From assembly GCA_021463145.1 (NCBI GenBank), contig JAJTWZ010000001.1:186001-250000 (forward strand): 64,000 nucleotides of DNA. Direction: 5' to 3'. Source of the stretch: Blastocatellia bacterium. Lineage in GTDB: Bacteria > Acidobacteriota > Blastocatellia > UBA7656 > JADIYM01. The notes under the pieces were generated by a model that did not search any database, had not been told where the DNA came from, and saw nothing but the letters and a program-made list of their open reading frames with translations. The position numbers and the translations under genes were made by a program. Positions within the stretch are counted from its first letter, which is position 1. Each line of letters begins with the position of its first letter. Of the stretch, positions 30,547 to 37,506 are shown in pieces.

Positions 30547-32307
30547 CTAGACGGTCGGCCCCGGGCAATCCGGTCCGAGCTTCACGGGCTCGCCTTCGGC
30601 AAGCGTATTCATCAGCTCGTCGAAGAAATAATCGAATCGATCCGCCACGGCCGCCGCTACTCGCTTGTCGTACATCTGGCGGCTACGGTCGATATCGTCC
30701 TTGAGACGCTCGTAGAGGTCGTTGTTTGTCCGCCCCTCGGCGACTGCCTGTTCGTTGTACAACTTGATCTCGCTCACCAGCAGCCGCGCGAACCTGCGAG
30801 CGTCGTTGTGCAGCTTTTCATCTTCGGGCGTGAGCTCTCCCGCAGCCGGAGGCCTGCTTGCCGTCAGTGGCGCGGACGCCGAGACGACGGGCGCAGGTGT
30901 CCACGGCACGGTCGGGCTTTCGTCGGTGAACCCGAACGGCGCCGCCGCTGGCTCCGGTTCCGGCTCAGGCTCCGGTTCAGGCGCTGGTTCCGAAAAGACC
31001 GGTATCGTTCGATCGTCGAACGACGGCTCGGCCGAAGCCGGTTCCACGGTGAGCTCGAACGGCGATATTGCAGGTGAAGCCGGTTCGGCTTCCGGTGGAA
31101 TCGTAATCTCGTATTCGGGTTCGGCGGATCGTTCCGGTTCCGGCTCGAATACGGGGGCCGGTTCGACTCTCAACTCGAATGGGCTCGGCGCGTCGACGAC
31201 GACTTCGGGCTCTGCCCAGGCGTCCGGCTCGGCCACTACCTCCGCCGGCGTGGAAGCGAACGGCTCGACGGAAGCCGGTTCGGGTTCGGGCTCGGGTTCG
31301 GGCGCGGGTTCGATCACGGGTTCCGGCTCCGGTTCGGCAGACCCTGCGATCACGGTTTCCGACTCGACATCGGGCGCGGGCTCGTCTACTCCCTGCCGAT
31401 ATTCCGGCGAGCCGCCGACTACGGTCTCTTCGGTCTCCCCGGCCTGCGGGGTTTCCTCCACGACGGCAGCCGGGACGGGCTCGGCCGGCGGCGGAGGCAC
31501 TGTCACCTGGCGGGCAACCGCCGACAGCGGTGCCGTCGCGCCGGATCCAAGGGGCCGGCCGCCCGGCTCGCCTATCCGTTGCCGAAGCGATGCGAGCTCC
31601 ACAATGATGCCGGCGGAGTGCACCAGTAGTTCCAACGCTTCGATACCGATCGAACCGACGCTAGTGTCGTAGGAGTCGGCGTACAGGATACCGACCGTCT
31701 TCGACCGCACGCGAAGGGGAATCCCCGAAATCCGCTCCGGCTTGATCGAGCCGAGCCGGTCGAGCAGCACGCCGTTGTCCTTCTGATCGAGCGGCTCCCC
31801 GAGAAACGTCGTCTGGCCGTTCAGCACGGCGCCAAGCATCGTGTCGGACCCTAGTGCTACTGTCAGCCCGCGCACCGCGTCATCGCCCTGTTCGTCGTCG
31901 AATCCTCGAGCAGCCCAGGCGATCGCATCGTCGCCCTTCACGACGAACAGCACCACGCGGGGTGCGAAGTTGTAGGCGCGCTCGACCAGGGCGTTGAGCA
32001 CATCCGCCTGCGACGACTGGCTATCGATGTCGACGACGGAATCGCGCAGCAGAGCCAGATCCCCGCTCAGCCGACTCGACTCGGCTGCAGCCTGTCCAAC
32101 CTGTGCGGCGATCTCGGCTGAAATCTGATCGAGCGCCGGACTCTCCTGCAGATTGAACGAGGTCCCGGATGTGGATCCGTGAAGTCGTTCGAGGACGGAT
32201 CCGATCTCTTCGCGGGCGGAAGCGACCGCGCCTTCCATCTCGGCCATTCGAGCGCGGACGAGTCCCTCTACCCGCTCGCGGAGCACGTCCTTGAAATCGC
32301 TGCTCAC
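30547..32307 (-). CDS. GAF-domain protein with acidic Pro/Glu-rich linker
   Basis: Start GTG 32307 has AAGGAGGACGTC upstream, a strong ribosome site. The 586-aa protein has a coiled-coil-like N-terminus (1-95) and a GAF domain (about 100-240, VLFVVKGDDAIAWAARGF and RSKTVGILYADS). A long Pro/Glu-rich linker (260-490, with runs such as EPEPEPEPEP) leads to a conserved helical C-terminus (EKLHNDARRFARLLVSEIKLYN). The GAF likely senses a small ligand or protein; the rest looks like a hub. It ends the LC7/DUF4388 cluster. No catalytic residue seen. Confidence 0.75.
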   Translation of the reverse strand: MSSDFKDVLRERVEGLVRARMAEMEGAVASAREEIGSVLERLHGSTSGTSFNLQESPALDQISAEIAAQVGQAAAESSRLSGDLALLRDSVVDIDSQSSQADVLNALVERAYNFAPRVVLFVVKGDDAIAWAARGFDDEQGDDAVRGLTVALGSDTMLGAVLNGQTTFLGEPLDQKDNGVLLDRLGSIKPERISGIPLRVRSKTVGILYADSYDTSVGSIGIEALELLVHSAGIIVELASLRQRIGEPGGRPLGSGATAPLSAVARQVTVPPPPAEPVPAAVVEETPQAGETEETVVGGSPEYRQGVDEPAPDVESETVIAGSAEPEPEPVIEPAPEPEPEPEPASVEPFASTPAEVVAEPDAWAEPEVVVDAPSPFELRVEPAPVFEPEPERSAEPEYEITIPPEAEPASPAISPFELTVEPASAEPSFDDRTIPVFSEPAPEPEPEPEPEPAAAPFGFTDESPTVPWTPAPVVSASAPLTASRPPAAGELTPEDEKLHNDARRFARLLVSEIKLYNEQAVAEGRTNNDLYERLKDDIDRSRQMYDKRVAAAVADRFDYFFDELMNTLAEGEPVKLGPDCPGPTV

Positions 32308-32317
32308 GACGTCCTCC

Positions 32318-33595
32318 TTACCGCTTCCTGAGTCGCTCGATTGCCTGTTTGAGCGAGATGCGCATTCGGTCCAGCGATTCGGCCAACGTGCCGATCTCGT
32401 CCTGCGACTGCACCGCGATCGGCGCATCCAGTTCGCCAAGACTGATCCGGTTGGCAGCCTCCGTCAGTTCGACGATGGGTCTGGTCAGTTTCTGCGCTCC
32501 GATCACGGCTCCTACAATCGCCAGCGCGAGCGCGACGAGAGTGACAACGAGGATCGTCAACTGCACGCGGCGGACGATTGACGTGAACCAACCTTCCTTG
32601 ATGGCTACGCCGATCTTGCCAATGGTCTTGGCTCCTTCCTTGGTCGCAACACCCTCGATCGGAACGAAGCTGGTCTTGTAGGTTCCAGCGCCAGCGAAAT
32701 CCTGGGTATTCAGGCTGGGCTTCTCGAACGTCCCGCCGGCGTCGACGGCCTGAATCCCCGTCGCCACGCCGCCCTGCGCACTGCCCACGAGATTCGTGGA
32801 CACGATCGTGTTCGTGCCGTCCTTGGTCGTGGCTATTACGACCGAAGCCTCGTCGAGCATGTCACGATAGACGGTCTGCTTGATTTCGTTGACGATCGAG
32901 GCCTGTTTGTCGCTTTCGACTACTACGTCGTTGTTGACGAGCTGACCGAGGACGACGATTCCGGAAACCGTTTCTCCTGTCAGCACGGGCGCGGCGGCCT
33001 CGAGGAACAAACCGGAGTCGACGCCGGCAACCTCCGCGCGCTTGGTAAGGCCCACGCCTTCCAACATCGCCGGACCCTCGAGCGCTGCCCCCGAAAGAGC
33101 CTCCGGCTTGCCCTGCTGGGCCAGGTTCGAAACGTCCACGAAGAGTTGATTGGCCGAGAAGTACCCGCCGTCGCCGGCCGGGGCGCCGTTGTGCTGCGCC
33201 ACGACCTTGCCTTTCGGATCCAGAAGCACCGCGAAGCTGAGCTTGCTGGCCTCGAGTTGCCGCTTGAGGACTTCCGAGGCGCCGGCCGCTGGTGCCGGCG
33301 TACCGGCCGCCGGTGCTGCGGCGGCTCCTCCCGCAGGCGCGGGCGTCGCCGGTCGCGCCGCGCCACGGCCGCTGGCGAGACTGGCTGCCAGCGACTGGGC
33401 CGCGGCACGCAGGTTCTCCTGTCGCTTGGAAAAGATCGATTTCGCAACGCGCGCGTCAGACAGGATGCGCTCGGTCGAACGCTGATCCGTATAAGTCGTG
33501 AGCTGAATCAGAATGATCGCGGCCGAAATCCCGAGCGGAACGATGATGGCCAGGAAGGCGAAGATGATCAGCTTGTTCCGGATGTTCAACTTCAT
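32318..33595 (-). CDS. Membrane sensor with extracytoplasmic domain and HAMP
   Basis: A 425-aa protein. TM1 (about 10-30), an Ala/Pro/Gly-rich stretch (83-110), a Cache-like extracytoplasmic domain (FAVLLDPKGKVVAQHNG and later strands), TM2 (about 345-368), then HAMP (LTRPIVELTEAANRISLGEL) and a short coiled-coil end. It lacks a kinase or chemotaxis output domain, so it must act through partners, probably the GAF and LC7 proteins encoded next to it. Its ATG lies in a TAATG overlap with the upstream DUF4388 gene. Confidence 0.8.
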   Translation of the reverse strand: MKLNIRNKLIIFAFLAIIVPLGISAAIILIQLTTYTDQRSTERILSDARVAKSIFSKRQENLRAAAQSLAASLASGRGAARPATPAPAGGAAAAPAAGTPAPAAGASEVLKRQLEASKLSFAVLLDPKGKVVAQHNGAPAGDGGYFSANQLFVDVSNLAQQGKPEALSGAALEGPAMLEGVGLTKRAEVAGVDSGLFLEAAAPVLTGETVSGIVVLGQLVNNDVVVESDKQASIVNEIKQTVYRDMLDEASVVIATTKDGTNTIVSTNLVGSAQGGVATGIQAVDAGGTFEKPSLNTQDFAGAGTYKTSFVPIEGVATKEGAKTIGKIGVAIKEGWFTSIVRRVQLTILVVTLVALALAIVGAVIGAQKLTRPIVELTEAANRISLGELDAPIAVQSQDEIGTLAESLDRMRISLKQAIERLRKR

Positions 33596-34398
33596 TAGTA
33601 CAAGTTCCTCATTCGTTCCAGCATCGCTTCCTGGAACTTCGTGCGCCGTGCCGGGTCGGGAATTTCGTTCGCAAGCCGCTCGACGAGCTCCGGAACGGAT
33701 TCCTTTGGAATGCTGCCACGCCCGTGACCCATCTGTTCCGCACAGTCCTCGACGACGATTGCAGCCATGGGTCCGATTGCTTGAATCAAATCCGCCTCGA
33801 CGGCCGCGATGAACGCGTCGTCAACGAGGTCAGCAGCGGGCGCGGGCTCAGCCATCTGCACCGCAACCAGCTCGATAAGTCCGAGTTCGTGCAACCGGCT
33901 GATTATCTTGGAAGTAAAGAGCTCGTTGAGCTGAGACGCCTCGGCGATCTCCAGAATCGTCTTCTCGCCGTCGAGCTGGGTAAGCACCGACCAGTCTTCG
34001 GCACGGAGCTGGACGTCGGCACTCGGCCGTGCGGCGAGCCGGTAAATGGCGTTCGACGACGGAACGACAGCCCGAATCCGCTCCCATTCGGTAGCGTAGG
34101 TGGCTGCTTCCTCGATTATCTGGTCAGTGGCGAGCGAAACCGTTCTTTCGTCGGTGGTCTCGTCCGAGTGGAAGCGGAAAGTGCCCTCACCCCAAGAAAA
34201 AAGACCATAAACGGCCTCCTCCCCAATCCATTCCTCGTAAAGAGCGTGTGACACGATGCCGCCAACAAGATAGATCTCGCCGAACTTTCCGTCTTCCGTG
34301 GTCAGTTCGAGCTGGCCGGTCCGGCCGCTCAAATGGAGCAGCCGAAGGATATCGATCAGCTTCAACTGCGCCAGATTTCCCGATAACGCTTCAGCCAT
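33595..34398 (-). CDS. DUF4388-domain protein
   Basis: The start is taken at ATG 34398 (MAEALSGNLAQLKLIDIL), the usual N-terminus of DUF4388; a GTG at 34461 would add 21 residues. The 267-aa protein has one DUF4388 domain (about 1-105, GQLELTTEDGKFGEIYLVGG), then a winged-helix-like part (KTILEIAEASQLNELFTSKIISRLHELGLI) and a helical tail. DUF4388 occurs with response regulators and gliding proteins in Acidobacteriota and Myxococcota; its ligand is unknown. Overlaps the HAMP gene, so co-translated. Confidence 0.8.
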   Translation of the reverse strand: MAEALSGNLAQLKLIDILRLLHLSGRTGQLELTTEDGKFGEIYLVGGIVSHALYEEWIGEEAVYGLFSWGEGTFRFHSDETTDERTVSLATDQIIEEAATYATEWERIRAVVPSSNAIYRLAARPSADVQLRAEDWSVLTQLDGEKTILEIAEASQLNELFTSKIISRLHELGLIELVAVQMAEPAPAADLVDDAFIAAVEADLIQAIGPMAAIVVEDCAEQMGHGRGSIPKESVPELVERLANEIPDPARRTKFQEAMLERMRNLY

Positions 34399-34580
34399 TC
34401 CCGTATCGTGCCCTTCGTTGTAGAGGTGGCCTGAAACGCCTGCCGTGGTCGTATTTGACACACGGCGCCGACGTCCCTGACGCCTTGAGGTCCCGCCTGC
34501 CGAAAATTTAGTGGAGCGAAGAGAAAGTTGCGAAAAAGGAGCCGGACCCTGGCCCGACTGATAGACCCGGACGCTTCGGT

Positions 34581-35066
34581 TCAGGCGCGGACGAGGGCTT
34601 TTATCATTTCGAGACTCGCCTCGTCAAGGTAGTTCTTCTGTAAGAGGTTACGGCGATCCACCTGAGCGCTGACCGTCAGTCCGCGAACCGTCGGCTCGGA
34701 CTTCAACTTGGTTGCGGCGACCTTCACAGTCATCCGAAGCATCGACGGATTGATCTTTGGCGAAGCAACGACTGCCAGAAAGACCTCTTCGACTCCATAC
34801 TTGGTTTCCAGGACCAGCGCGAGGTGGGCGTAAAGCATCACGTAGCCCTGATCGAAATTCAGCGTAACTTCTTCGGCAGAACCGTCTGTCATTTCGAGCG
34901 CAGCGAACATCTGCATGAGCCGCAGCGCAAGCTGGCCCGACTGCTCCGGCGTCACTCTCTGGGCCAGGCTCATCAATACCTCTCCACGATTGTTGATCAG
35001 GTACGAGGCATTCACGCCTGGAACGTTGTTTACCGCTTGCAGAAAGGCTTCGTGGGCTCGCGACAT
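34581..35066 (-). CDS. Roadblock/LC7-like protein
   Basis: A 161-aa protein with an AGAGGA ribosome site. The opening AHEAFLQAVNNVPGVNASYLINNRGEVLMS fits the roadblock/LC7 fold, as in MglB. Such proteins regulate or scaffold small Ras-like GTPases such as MglA. No GTPase gene is in the window, so its partner must be elsewhere, or it dimerises with the other LC7 proteins of this cluster. Confidence 0.65.
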   Translation of the reverse strand: MSRAHEAFLQAVNNVPGVNASYLINNRGEVLMSLAQRVTPEQSGQLALRLMQMFAALEMTDGSAEEVTLNFDQGYVMLYAHLALVLETKYGVEEVFLAVVASPKINPSMLRMTVKVAATKLKSEPTVRGLTVSAQVDRRNLLQKNYLDEASLEMIKALVRA

Positions 35067-35130
35067 CGGTTCCTCTCAAAAACGCCGGGGACTTTCAACT
35101 GATCGGGCGAGAATCGCCCCAAACCTGCCC

Positions 35131-36306
35131 TCAACCGTGCTCGACGGTTTCCACTGGCTCCGAATCCGTCTCGCCAGCGTCCGAAATGAACGCCAGCATG
35201 CCAAAGAGGCCATAAGCATCGAACGCTTCGCGGCGATCCGCGTAGAGTTGCGTGAGCGCATCCGAAACTCGTTGACGCAGCCGGTCGCCCTCCACGCCGT
35301 CGCGACGGGAAAGCCCCGCAACCGCCACGTGAAGCGCCTCGGCAAGGCCGGCAGCAAATTCCTCCGGATCGACATTTCCAACGAAAGCGATCTCGCCTGC
35401 GTGGTACTCGAATTCGGCGGCAAACGGGTCCAGGAACGGGTAACGGTCCGCCACTTCCAACTGGCCGGCCCGAAGCTCTATTGCAAATCCGTTGGTTCCA
35501 TCGCGCGATCCAACCGCCTCCTCGATGACCGCAACTACCTCGCTCATCAGCAGCACGAGTGGCGAGATGGACTCTCGACTGTCAGTTGCCATATCGCCGG
35601 CAACGGCAGCCGTCACAGGCTGCGCCTCCGGCCCTCGAGGAGGCTCCTCCTCGGATGGACGAACGATCGAAAGCTTCGGAGCTTCGGCGACAGGCTCGGC
35701 GACGGGAGCTACCGGCACGTCGACCGGAATCGAATAGACGTTGAAGACGGCGCCGAACGCGTCCGAAACTTCGAGCATTGCCTTCAACGCAGCCTGACCA
35801 GAAAGCGTCGCACCATCGAACGGCGAGTAAACGCCGTCAGGCTGACCGCCGTGAATGTAGACGACGCCGACGCCAAGATCTTCCGCCGCAACGACTTCAA
35901 CGTACCAGATCGATTGCCGGTCGAGCGCGAGTTTTCTGATGAGCTTGTCGAGATCCGTGAAGTCCGACGACAACCCCTCGTACACCGGTTGCCCATCGAC
36001 GATGCCTGCAAGCGCCTCGATCGTCGGCGCCGAGTGCTCGTAGATCGAAACCGATCCATCGCGATTCTCGCTTCGCACGAGCAATCCGTCGATGGCATCG
36101 GAACCGGTCCGCACCGCCGTTTCGGTCTGCTCGATAGCGCCGATGATCGATCCCTCGTCGATGAAGACGTGGGCATCGTAATTTCGAAAAGCAATGTGCA
36201 CGGAGCCCGTGAACTGACGGACCTGCAAGTCGGCAAGCAACGCCCCCACCTTGAGGTAGGAGGTACCGAGATTCTCGTGAACGGGTTTGCCCTTGGGTAC
36301 TCGCAT
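35131..36306 (-). CDS. DUF4388/PATAN-like protein of unknown function
   Basis: The start is set at ATG 36306; an upstream TTG would add 13 residues. The 391-aa protein begins with a beta-rich region (TGSVHIAFRNYDAHVFIDEGSIIGAI) that resembles DUF4388/PATAN segments. It continues with a second globular part (SIWYVEVVAAEDLGVGVVYI), a Pro/Glu-rich linker (about 205-240), and a helical C-terminal region. The domain call is by resemblance and tentative. It lies between two LC7 genes in the same orientation. Confidence 0.6.
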   Translation of the reverse strand: MRVPKGKPVHENLGTSYLKVGALLADLQVRQFTGSVHIAFRNYDAHVFIDEGSIIGAIEQTETAVRTGSDAIDGLLVRSENRDGSVSIYEHSAPTIEALAGIVDGQPVYEGLSSDFTDLDKLIRKLALDRQSIWYVEVVAAEDLGVGVVYIHGGQPDGVYSPFDGATLSGQAALKAMLEVSDAFGAVFNVYSIPVDVPVAPVAEPVAEAPKLSIVRPSEEEPPRGPEAQPVTAAVAGDMATDSRESISPLVLLMSEVVAVIEEAVGSRDGTNGFAIELRAGQLEVADRYPFLDPFAAEFEYHAGEIAFVGNVDPEEFAAGLAEALHVAVAGLSRRDGVEGDRLRQRVSDALTQLYADRREAFDAYGLFGMLAFISDAGETDSEPVETVEHG

Positions 36307-36352
36307 ACGCAGTACTATGAGAGAAGCCGGCGGGTGCCGCGACAACGATGGC

Positions 36353-37072
36353 CTAGCCGAGCGGCCCGGTGAGCCCGCCCGTACTCAAGGACCCCGTCGA
36401 GCGCCGCGCCCGGAGCTTCTTGAAAGCGCGCTGGATCTGAGGCTCGAGCGCCTCGTCCCGCTGCGACGTGGAGTAGACGAGGGCAACGACGAACTCCATC
36501 TGATCGATTACTACCGTCTTGCGGTCGCCGTTGAACAGCGCCACGCGCTGCAGGCGACCGGCATTCGCCGGGGTTCCGGCGATGATTCCGTTGGCGACCA
36601 GAAACGACGACAGTGCCGCCATCCGATCCGGTGCCTTGATGTTTACACTTGCCTGCAAAGCGCCGTCCGAAGTCGCAACCAATGCGCCTTCGATGCCGCG
36701 AACTTTCACCAGATCGTTCACGAGCGCCTGATACTGCGTCTGGCTGACCGCCGATCCGGAGTGGCGCGCCTCGTCGATCAGGCGCATGCCCTCCATCAGG
36801 ATTCCGGCCCACGGTTCGAAAATCGTGCGTGTTGGCGACGTCACGCCAGCATCGATCCGAAAAGATCCTTCTTCCATCCCAAGCGCGCGGTGCACCGCGT
36901 CGATCCCGACAAGGTTTCCAAGCCGGGCATCGACGACTTCGCCGTCCTGAAAGAAGAAGACTCCCTCACCCGTCGGATAATTCACGGTCAACCGCGCCAG
37001 ATTCCGTCCAACGCAATTGATCTGGATGATATCGACGAGTGCGAGGTCTTTCAGATCACCAACGAGAGCCAT
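36353..37072 (-). CDS. DUF4388 plus roadblock/LC7 fusion protein
   Basis: The start is ATG 37072 after AAGGAG. The 239-aa protein has an N-terminal DUF4388 (ALVGDLKDLALVDIIQIN, VFFFQDGEVVDARLGN) and a C-terminal LC7-like domain (about 115-220, ALVNDLVKVRGIEGALVATSDGAL). Fusing the two domains implies that the DUF4388 and LC7 proteins of this cluster work in one complex. It is the first gene of the six-gene minus-strand run, facing a divergent mqnA. Confidence 0.75.
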   Translation of the reverse strand: MALVGDLKDLALVDIIQINCVGRNLARLTVNYPTGEGVFFFQDGEVVDARLGNLVGIDAVHRALGMEEGSFRIDAGVTSPTRTIFEPWAGILMEGMRLIDEARHSGSAVSQTQYQALVNDLVKVRGIEGALVATSDGALQASVNIKAPDRMAALSSFLVANGIIAGTPANAGRLQRVALFNGDRKTVVIDQMEFVVALVYSTSQRDEALEPQIQRAFKKLRARRSTGSLSTGGLTGPLG

Positions 37073-37506
37073 ACCCGCTCCTTCCAAGATCGTCAAACAG
37101 GCGAGCAGCGTATCTTACCTGGACTCGAGTTCGTCGCAAACCGGACCGCACGACTGGGTCGCCCGACCCGCGTCCGCAACAACCTTCAACTAGCTAACTT
37201 CTCAATCCAAGTGAGGTTAGCCGCATCGTAACAACTCCCTTATCGGCTGTCAACGCAGTTTCCTTTAGCGGATTTTCACTTGTCAGAGTCCCATTTCGCC
37301 CACTAGATTCCACCGGTCGGCGGGCCGGTTTGGCCCGTTCCGCACCACCGATTGGAACTCGAATTGTTCACGAATGTAACCCTTCAGCCTCGAATCTGGA
37401 GCCTGGATGCGGAAGGCTGCGTGCCTTCCAACGGGCGCGAACCAGTCGTGTCCTACTGGCTCGCGGAAGCCAGCGGGATGTCGCTCCGCGTACTCTCGTG
37501 GGTCTA
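37073..37506. other. Intergenic region between divergent genes
   Basis: About 430 bases between the DUF4388-LC7 gene and mqnA. It holds a putative plus-strand promoter (37280-37309) and a small hairpin CGGGCC/GGCCCG at 37321-37337. The part around 37195-37310 is richer in A/T than its surroundings, as expected for a divergent promoter region. No other gene is apparent. Confidence 0.55.
37280..37309 (+). promoter_or_regulatory. Putative sigma-70 promoter upstream of mqnA
   Basis: TTGTCA at 37280-37285, an 18-base spacer, then TAGATT at 37304-37309 (5/6 and 4/6 consensus). It would start a leader of about 190 bases before mqnA. Confidence 0.35.

Follow-up and report, generated by a model that had tools for sequence, protein, structure and literature searches.

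A conserved five-gene DUF4388-roadblock operon with a HAMP-only membrane sensor in Acidobacteriota

Which of several adjacent genes belong to one signalling system, and how a membrane sensor without an output domain of its own could pass on its signal, are the questions raised by a row of six genes in a Blastocatellia bacterium (assembly GCA_021463145.1, contig JAJTWZ010000001.1). The analysed window is a stretch of 64,000 nucleotides, and the six genes all lie on its minus strand, spanning 30547-37072 in the order g1-g2-g3-g4-g5-g6. The original prediction had united all six in a cluster with a GAF protein as its hub. Comparison with related genomes shows that g1-g5, not six genes, form the conserved unit, with an order kept far beyond chance.

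The conserved unit and its proteins

The features of the locus are the following:

36353..37072, minus strand: g1, fusion of DUF4388 (PATAN-like) and roadblock/LC7, 239 amino acids (Pfam, PDB profile matches, Foldseek)
35131..36309, minus strand: g2, 392 amino acids, two tandem DUF4388-like folds (from model topology), a disordered linker and a helical C-terminal domain; a dispensable member
34581..35066, minus strand: g3, stand-alone roadblock/LC7 protein, 161 amino acids (Pfam in orthologs, PDB profiles)
33595..34398, minus strand: g4, DUF4388, a winged-helix-like middle and a conserved C-terminal domain of about 70 amino acids without a Pfam name, 267 amino acids
32318..33595, minus strand: g5, single-Cache sensor with two transmembrane segments and a cytoplasmic HAMP, no output domain, ending in RMRISLKQAIERLRKR, 425 amino acids
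30547..32307, minus strand: g6, GAF protein with a Pro/Glu-rich linker and a conserved C-terminal domain; adjacent, outside the conserved module

From g1 to g6, the intergenic gaps amount to 43, 64, 182, -1 and 10 bases, the third being 119 if g4 starts at the upstream GTG at 34461. The predicted six same-strand genes agree exactly with the sequence in order and coordinates, as do the two tight junctions, i.e., the TAATG overlap of g4 and g5 at 33595 and the gap of 10 bases between g5 and g6 (32308-32317). Upstream of g1, a sigma-70-like match is situated at 37225-37253 (TTGACA-17-TACGAT), from a scan that found 3 matches versus 1.4 expected; a scan for terminators gave matches no more often than at chance level.

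Conservation was followed in a survey of 162 class genomes, that of the window among them, and in a phylum-wide sample of 396 genomes. Orthologs of g4 occur in 15 of the 162 class genomes (window genome counted). Within the limits of the contigs, g1-g5 keep their order and strand in 13 relatives from the class as well as in the window genome, and the arrangement is seen in part in a fourteenth relative (G025); G029 is the sole case among the class loci inspected from which g2 is absent. The phylum sample added eight full-length g4 homologs (34-36% identity) from four further families of the phylum, and in all eight of these genomes the arrangement is kept, with gaps often of 0-25 bases, g2 being absent from two of them (G230 and G281). 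Named copies of the operon include Chloracidobacterium and other Blastocatellia. Conserved gene order across Acidobacteriota had been proposed as a check on the cluster, and g1-g5 pass it both in class relatives and in the four families elsewhere in the phylum; the idea that a membrane HAMP protein lacking an output domain feeds one signalling module is supported for these five genes. Judging from gene order, we consider it probable, as an estimate and not a computed value, that g1-g5 encode one complex. A literature search of incomplete coverage found no description of the g1-g5 operon; equally, it did not find DUF4388 and roadblock together, and the mention of DUF4388 that it did find concerns nitrite reductase.

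Concerning the individual proteins, the N-terminal half of g1 matches DUF4388, which we take to be the Pfam form of the PATAN-like domain, at E=1.8e-18, and g4 matches it at E=1.7e-20. In the g2 family the domain is matched in nine of ten members (best 8.6e-5). The roadblock half of g1 scores E=0.0017 in Pfam for the window copy and 3e-4 for the best ortholog, and g3 matches Robl_LC7 at E=0.0013 in the window copy, with 8 of 13 orthologs matching (best 1.5e-4). Because these Pfam values are weak (around 1e-3 to 1e-4), the roadblock assignments were cross-checked by PDB profile searches for both proteins and by a structural model of g1. The top two profile matches of g1 are roadblock chains, and all 14 matches of g3 are roadblock or LAMTOR2 proteins, each of these matches being weak. 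In Foldseek, the AlphaFold model of the C-terminal half of g1 matches MglB, subunits of Ragulator and roadblocks of Asgard (1j3w, 3t1s, 6hjm and 6izw; E 1e-5 to 1e-4, probability 1.00); the other half of the model, DUF4388, is of low confidence and was left out of use. The model of g2 (predicted local distance difference test, pLDDT, 76.8) exhibits two repeated alpha/beta units and has no significant match in a fold search of the PDB; its matches to sliding clamps, with TM-scores (template modelling) of about 0.13, were judged to be noise from these repeated units. When profiles were compared, g2 gave weak similarity to g1, g3 and g4, as did g3 to the roadblock half of g1, the alignments being shallow. 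A receiver domain was found by Pfam in none of g1-g5. Taken together, the original domain calls were right in outline (the g1 fusion, a DUF4388-like g2, a roadblock g3, DUF4388 in g4, Cache-HAMP in g5).

Additional g1-like genes with 43-66% identity exist outside the operon in G013 (L140:7278-8093), G009 (L141:7838-8650) and G033 (L142:7791-10244); the last encodes a protein of 817 amino acids that has only the DUF4388 part in common with g1.

The HAMP end of g5 and its candidate reader

The sensor g5 matches HAMP at E=2.3e-13, and the single-Cache domain is matched in 12 of 13 members of its family (best 6e-12). As had been predicted for the window copy, there is no output domain: the orthologs are 366-425 amino acids long and all stop directly past HAMP. 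Mean pairwise identity among 16 distant copies is 0.31 in the sensor, 0.28 in the second transmembrane segment and 0.60 in HAMP, and in the final 16 residues (RMRISLKxAIERLRxR) it reaches 0.81. Both the constancy of this end point and its contrast to the sensor suggest a docking surface.

The best candidate for a protein that reads this surface is the C-terminal domain of g4, since two remote lineages pair it with a HAMP-only protein. A second pair in G013, diverged in sequence, comprises a g4-like protein and a HAMP-only protein and nothing else. In the family f72, reached via its HAMP-only protein, a gene for a REC-protein kinase is followed by a protein with the g4 C-terminal domain and then by the HAMP-only protein, the last two being 8-10 bases apart; the middle protein has no DUF4388 and has in common with g4 the last approximately 70 residues (hhalign E=9.8e-6). 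Searched against 4929 open reading frames, a profile of this domain made from class orthologs alone retrieved nothing besides g4 orthologs, the protein of G013 (1.1e-5) and, of the two f72 proteins, one (0.032). Eight loci encode DUF4388-helix-turn-helix proteins lacking the g4 C-terminal domain, and a g5-like neighbour is present in none of them. The loci behind the pairing are not a random sample, such that it is a lead and not a proof. That g4 reads the signal of g5 appears to us evenly poised between yes and no, a matter of judgement and not of computation. More tentative, and somewhat less probable than that, is the general form of the idea, a split receptor in which an output-less Cache-HAMP protein would signal through a constant HAMP tail to the g4 C-terminal domain, with the output half in trans and coupled to PATAN, roadblock or kinase partners.

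The two f72 loci (L179:3763-6813 and L180:3832-6757) each form a tight row, in which the gene for a REC-Ser/Thr kinase is followed by one for a small protein carrying the C-terminal domain of g4 and one for a HAMP-only membrane protein; the row may represent the split receptor in a kinase version.

Output of the system and alternative explanations

The reading that we regard as best, with about even chances, is a system resembling a conservon that acts in trans, its target being MglA, the pilus motor or both. The periplasmic Cache domain of g5 would sense an external cue and thereby change the HAMP helices. Because nothing in g5 lies beyond HAMP, another protein must take up its signal in trans, and the most likely one is g4, whose C-terminal domain would contact the conserved tail of HAMP. 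In turn, g4 would associate with the PATAN-like (DUF4388) proteins, g1 and g2, and with the roadblock parts of g1 and g3, and the resulting complex would act on a partner encoded elsewhere, i.e., on an MglA-type GTPase via the roadblocks, on PilB via the PATAN-like domains, or on both, which would adjust surface motility or polarity. Gene order lends good support to the sensing unit, and we infer the physical complex, the contact between g4 and g5, and the output.

No GTPase is present within any copy of the operon, and the GTPases found in the window genome are situated on other contigs, the 64-kb window itself not having been scanned protein by protein; the absence of a GTPase that had been noted for the window accordingly holds for the operon. 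An MglA-type GTPase elsewhere in the genome, which had been named as a check, is present: contig 152 carries mglB-mglA and contig 24 a second MglA homolog. Each of the 23 genomes with the operon has an MglA homolog, and 22 have PilM, the missing case being an assembly of 82% completeness. Concerning type IV pili, contig 131 of the window genome contains pilM as well as a pilQ-like gene followed by a roadblock gene. Two Ras/Roc-type GTPases are found on contig 101 (L003, G000:C101:4940-5410; L004, G000:C101:33905-34396), one following an OmpA-like protein, the other preceding a cyclase-like protein, an arrangement similar to Group 1 Rup systems (PMC4316618).

Gene neighbourhoods in relatives are better leads to the output than this co-occurrence. 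G001, from the same order, possesses a row (L126:5373-9520) of a REC-DUF4388-roadblock-like protein, two roadblock-like proteins and a protein of 616 amino acids with an MglA-like GTPase domain at its start, the roadblock-like calls being based on sequence resemblance and one weak LAMTOR3-family match. In G005 (L128), a g1-like DUF4388 gene precedes CheY, CheW, two methyl-accepting chemotaxis proteins (MCPs) and an Hpt protein. These two operons, the one combining DUF4388-roadblock-like and MglA-like proteins and the other chemosensory, favour an output towards polarity or the pilus. They agree with published links: genes for PATAN proteins have been reported in the vicinity of those for MglA and MglB (PMC4316618), PilB, the motor of the pilus, is a binding partner of the PATAN domain (PMC10519157; PMC7690835), and two PATAN proteins of Myxococcus co-occur with the pilus regulator SgmX (PMC11580455). 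We infer an output to MglA and/or type IV pili, with the scales level in our judgement, which is not a calculation.

Several points weigh against this reading. The operon is not needed for MglA or PilM, because seven genomes from the window's own order lack it and retain both. MglA is found in 15 of 15 operon-bearing versus 113 of 147 operon-free class genomes (Fisher p=0.04, with relatedness ignored); with near-universal genes, related genomes and such a p value, co-occurrence of MglA and PilM was rejected as functional proof. An MglA gene adjoining the operon was not seen in the loci read, and the only MglA found in G234 is a 48% identical copy within a longer frame. The general HAMP consensus accounts for part of the conservation of the g5 tail, and the winged-helix-like region of g4 is compatible with transcriptional output. 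As to the longer frames, six operon-bearing genomes of the families f24 and f40 (G213, G234, G201, G176, G189 and G224) carry their MglA homologs (47-49% identity) in open frames of 750-787 amino acids, apparently as fusions of MglA with a further large region.

Ragulator-type roadblocks act as scaffolds, and the roadblocks of g1 and g3 might likewise no longer serve a GTPase, such that the system would work by protein contacts alone, e.g., as a chemosensory-type adaptor for the pilus machinery. The lack of a GTPase in every operon copy and the g1-like gene within the chemosensory operon of G005 fit this explanation, whereas the MglA homolog in every operon-bearing genome and the existence of a DUF4388-roadblock-like-GTPase operon in the same order do not, and we consider it possible but rather unlikely. 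Less probable still, and in our view unlikely, is control of transcription, in which g5 would sense, the winged-helix-like region of g4 would bind DNA, and the roadblock and DUF4388 proteins would modulate g4. The middle region of g4 matches HTH_47 (0.0011), MarR_2 (0.0018, in an ortholog) and HTH_27, its best PDB profile match is a MarR-type regulator (E=0.013), and Group 3 MglA systems contain winged helix-turn-helix-like proteins (PMC4316618); however, every one of the Pfam scores is below the cut-offs, and f72 keeps the pairing of g4 C-terminal domain and HAMP-only protein without the DUF4388-helix-turn-helix part.

The membership of g6, predicted as the GAF hub, is contradicted by its surroundings in relatives. 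The GAF label itself is right: the window copy has no Pfam match of its own, and GAF_2 is matched in 9 of 12 members of its family (best 5e-7). Homologs of g6 are widespread (46 of 58 relatives) and lie at loci other than that of g1-g5, and in all 14 relatives with an inspected g6 locus, operon-bearing ones included, g6 is unlinked to g1-g5, by which synteny it was ruled out as a cluster member. Its orthologs usually directly precede a transglycosylase-like gene (L087, L088, L090, L092, L093, L095, L096, L097 and L100; SLT domain confirmed by Pfam in L087) and follow an FHA-like protein in three loci (L092, L093 and L097), neighbours that suggest a separate cell-envelope role. Among the loci read, g6 directly follows g5 in the window genome only, and it may be co-transcribed with g5 in this lineage. 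A conserved six-gene system is very improbable: the start of g6 only 10 bases past g5 here, with probable co-transcription, the GAF accessory proteins that conservons can include (CvnF8, PMC13343842) and a DUF4388 gene near a g6 ortholog in G020 speak for it, whereas the separate location of g6 in the 14 relatives and the sucC-like, TPR or Hsp70-like genes (named by resemblance) that relatives carry past g5 instead contradict it as a general rule, a link limited to this family's lineage being possible.

The G020 gene (L096:8068-9159) lies on the same strand as the nearby g6 ortholog, and its DUF4388 protein is 45% identical to the N-terminal half of g1; the five-gene operon is absent there, and the proximity may or may not carry meaning. 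The C-terminal region of g6 (30547-30855) forms a domain of around 95 amino acids (HNDARRFARLLVSEIKLYNEQ...) without a Pfam name, which is mostly 60-76% identical across the class and is also found at two other places in this genome (C68 and C8).

Comparison with known systems

The actinobacterial conservon (CvnA-CvnD, with the accessory CvnF) is, like g1-g5, a fixed operon that encodes a membrane sensor with HAMP, a roadblock of the MglB type and additional small conserved proteins. The counterpart of CvnB is the roadblock fold in g3 and in the C-terminal half of g1. Two defining features differ: CvnA combines transmembrane segments and HAMP with a HATPase kinase, whereas g5 and all its orthologs end after HAMP, and the MglA-type GTPase CvnD is encoded in the operon, whereas MglA is situated elsewhere in the genome here. 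Furthermore, g1-g5 contain DUF4388/PATAN-like proteins and are found in Acidobacteriota. Because the kinase module and the in-operon GTPase were both tested for and are both absent, g1-g5 are not a conservon; they may nevertheless function in the manner of one whose GTPase comes from elsewhere in the genome.

With the MglA/MglB/RomR polarity module of Myxococcus xanthus, the operon has in common the MglB-fold roadblocks and the occurrence of MglA in the same genomes, whereas its locus is separate from mglBA and the roadblocks of g1 and g3 are only weakly similar in sequence to known ones. Type IV pilus chemosensory (Chp/Pix-like) operons resemble it through the g1-like DUF4388 gene in the chemosensory operon of a relative (L128), whereas g1-g5 hold no CheA, CheW, CheY or MCP signalling domain. 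The PATAN regulators of type IV pili in Synechocystis (PixE, PixG, LsiR) possess a PATAN-like domain, present here as DUF4388, together with a CheY-like receiver domain, which g1-g5 lack; g1-g5 are instead fed by a HAMP-only membrane protein, and the roadblock is fused or encoded alongside.

The proximity of PATAN, roadblock and MglA proteins is already known, the signal input to them mostly is not, and the operon is a conserved candidate for such an input. Its membrane sensor, whose cytoplasmic end is short and fixed, together with g4 as specific candidate reader, makes a signal route to MglA or the pilus motor testable with few proteins. A further suggestion from the operon is that HAMP need not be fused to an output domain but can pass its signal to another protein, and the split receptor, if true, would constitute a general receptor class with a previously unnamed domain, the C-terminal one of g4. 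With the PATAN-roadblock signalling genes (Makarova 2006; Wuichet 2014), g1-g5 share both DUF4388/PATAN (E <= 2e-18 in g1 and g4, weak in g2) and a roadblock homolog close by, in the g1 fusion and in g3; to this loosely known group g1-g5 belong, and what they add to it is a conserved, kinase-free membrane input.

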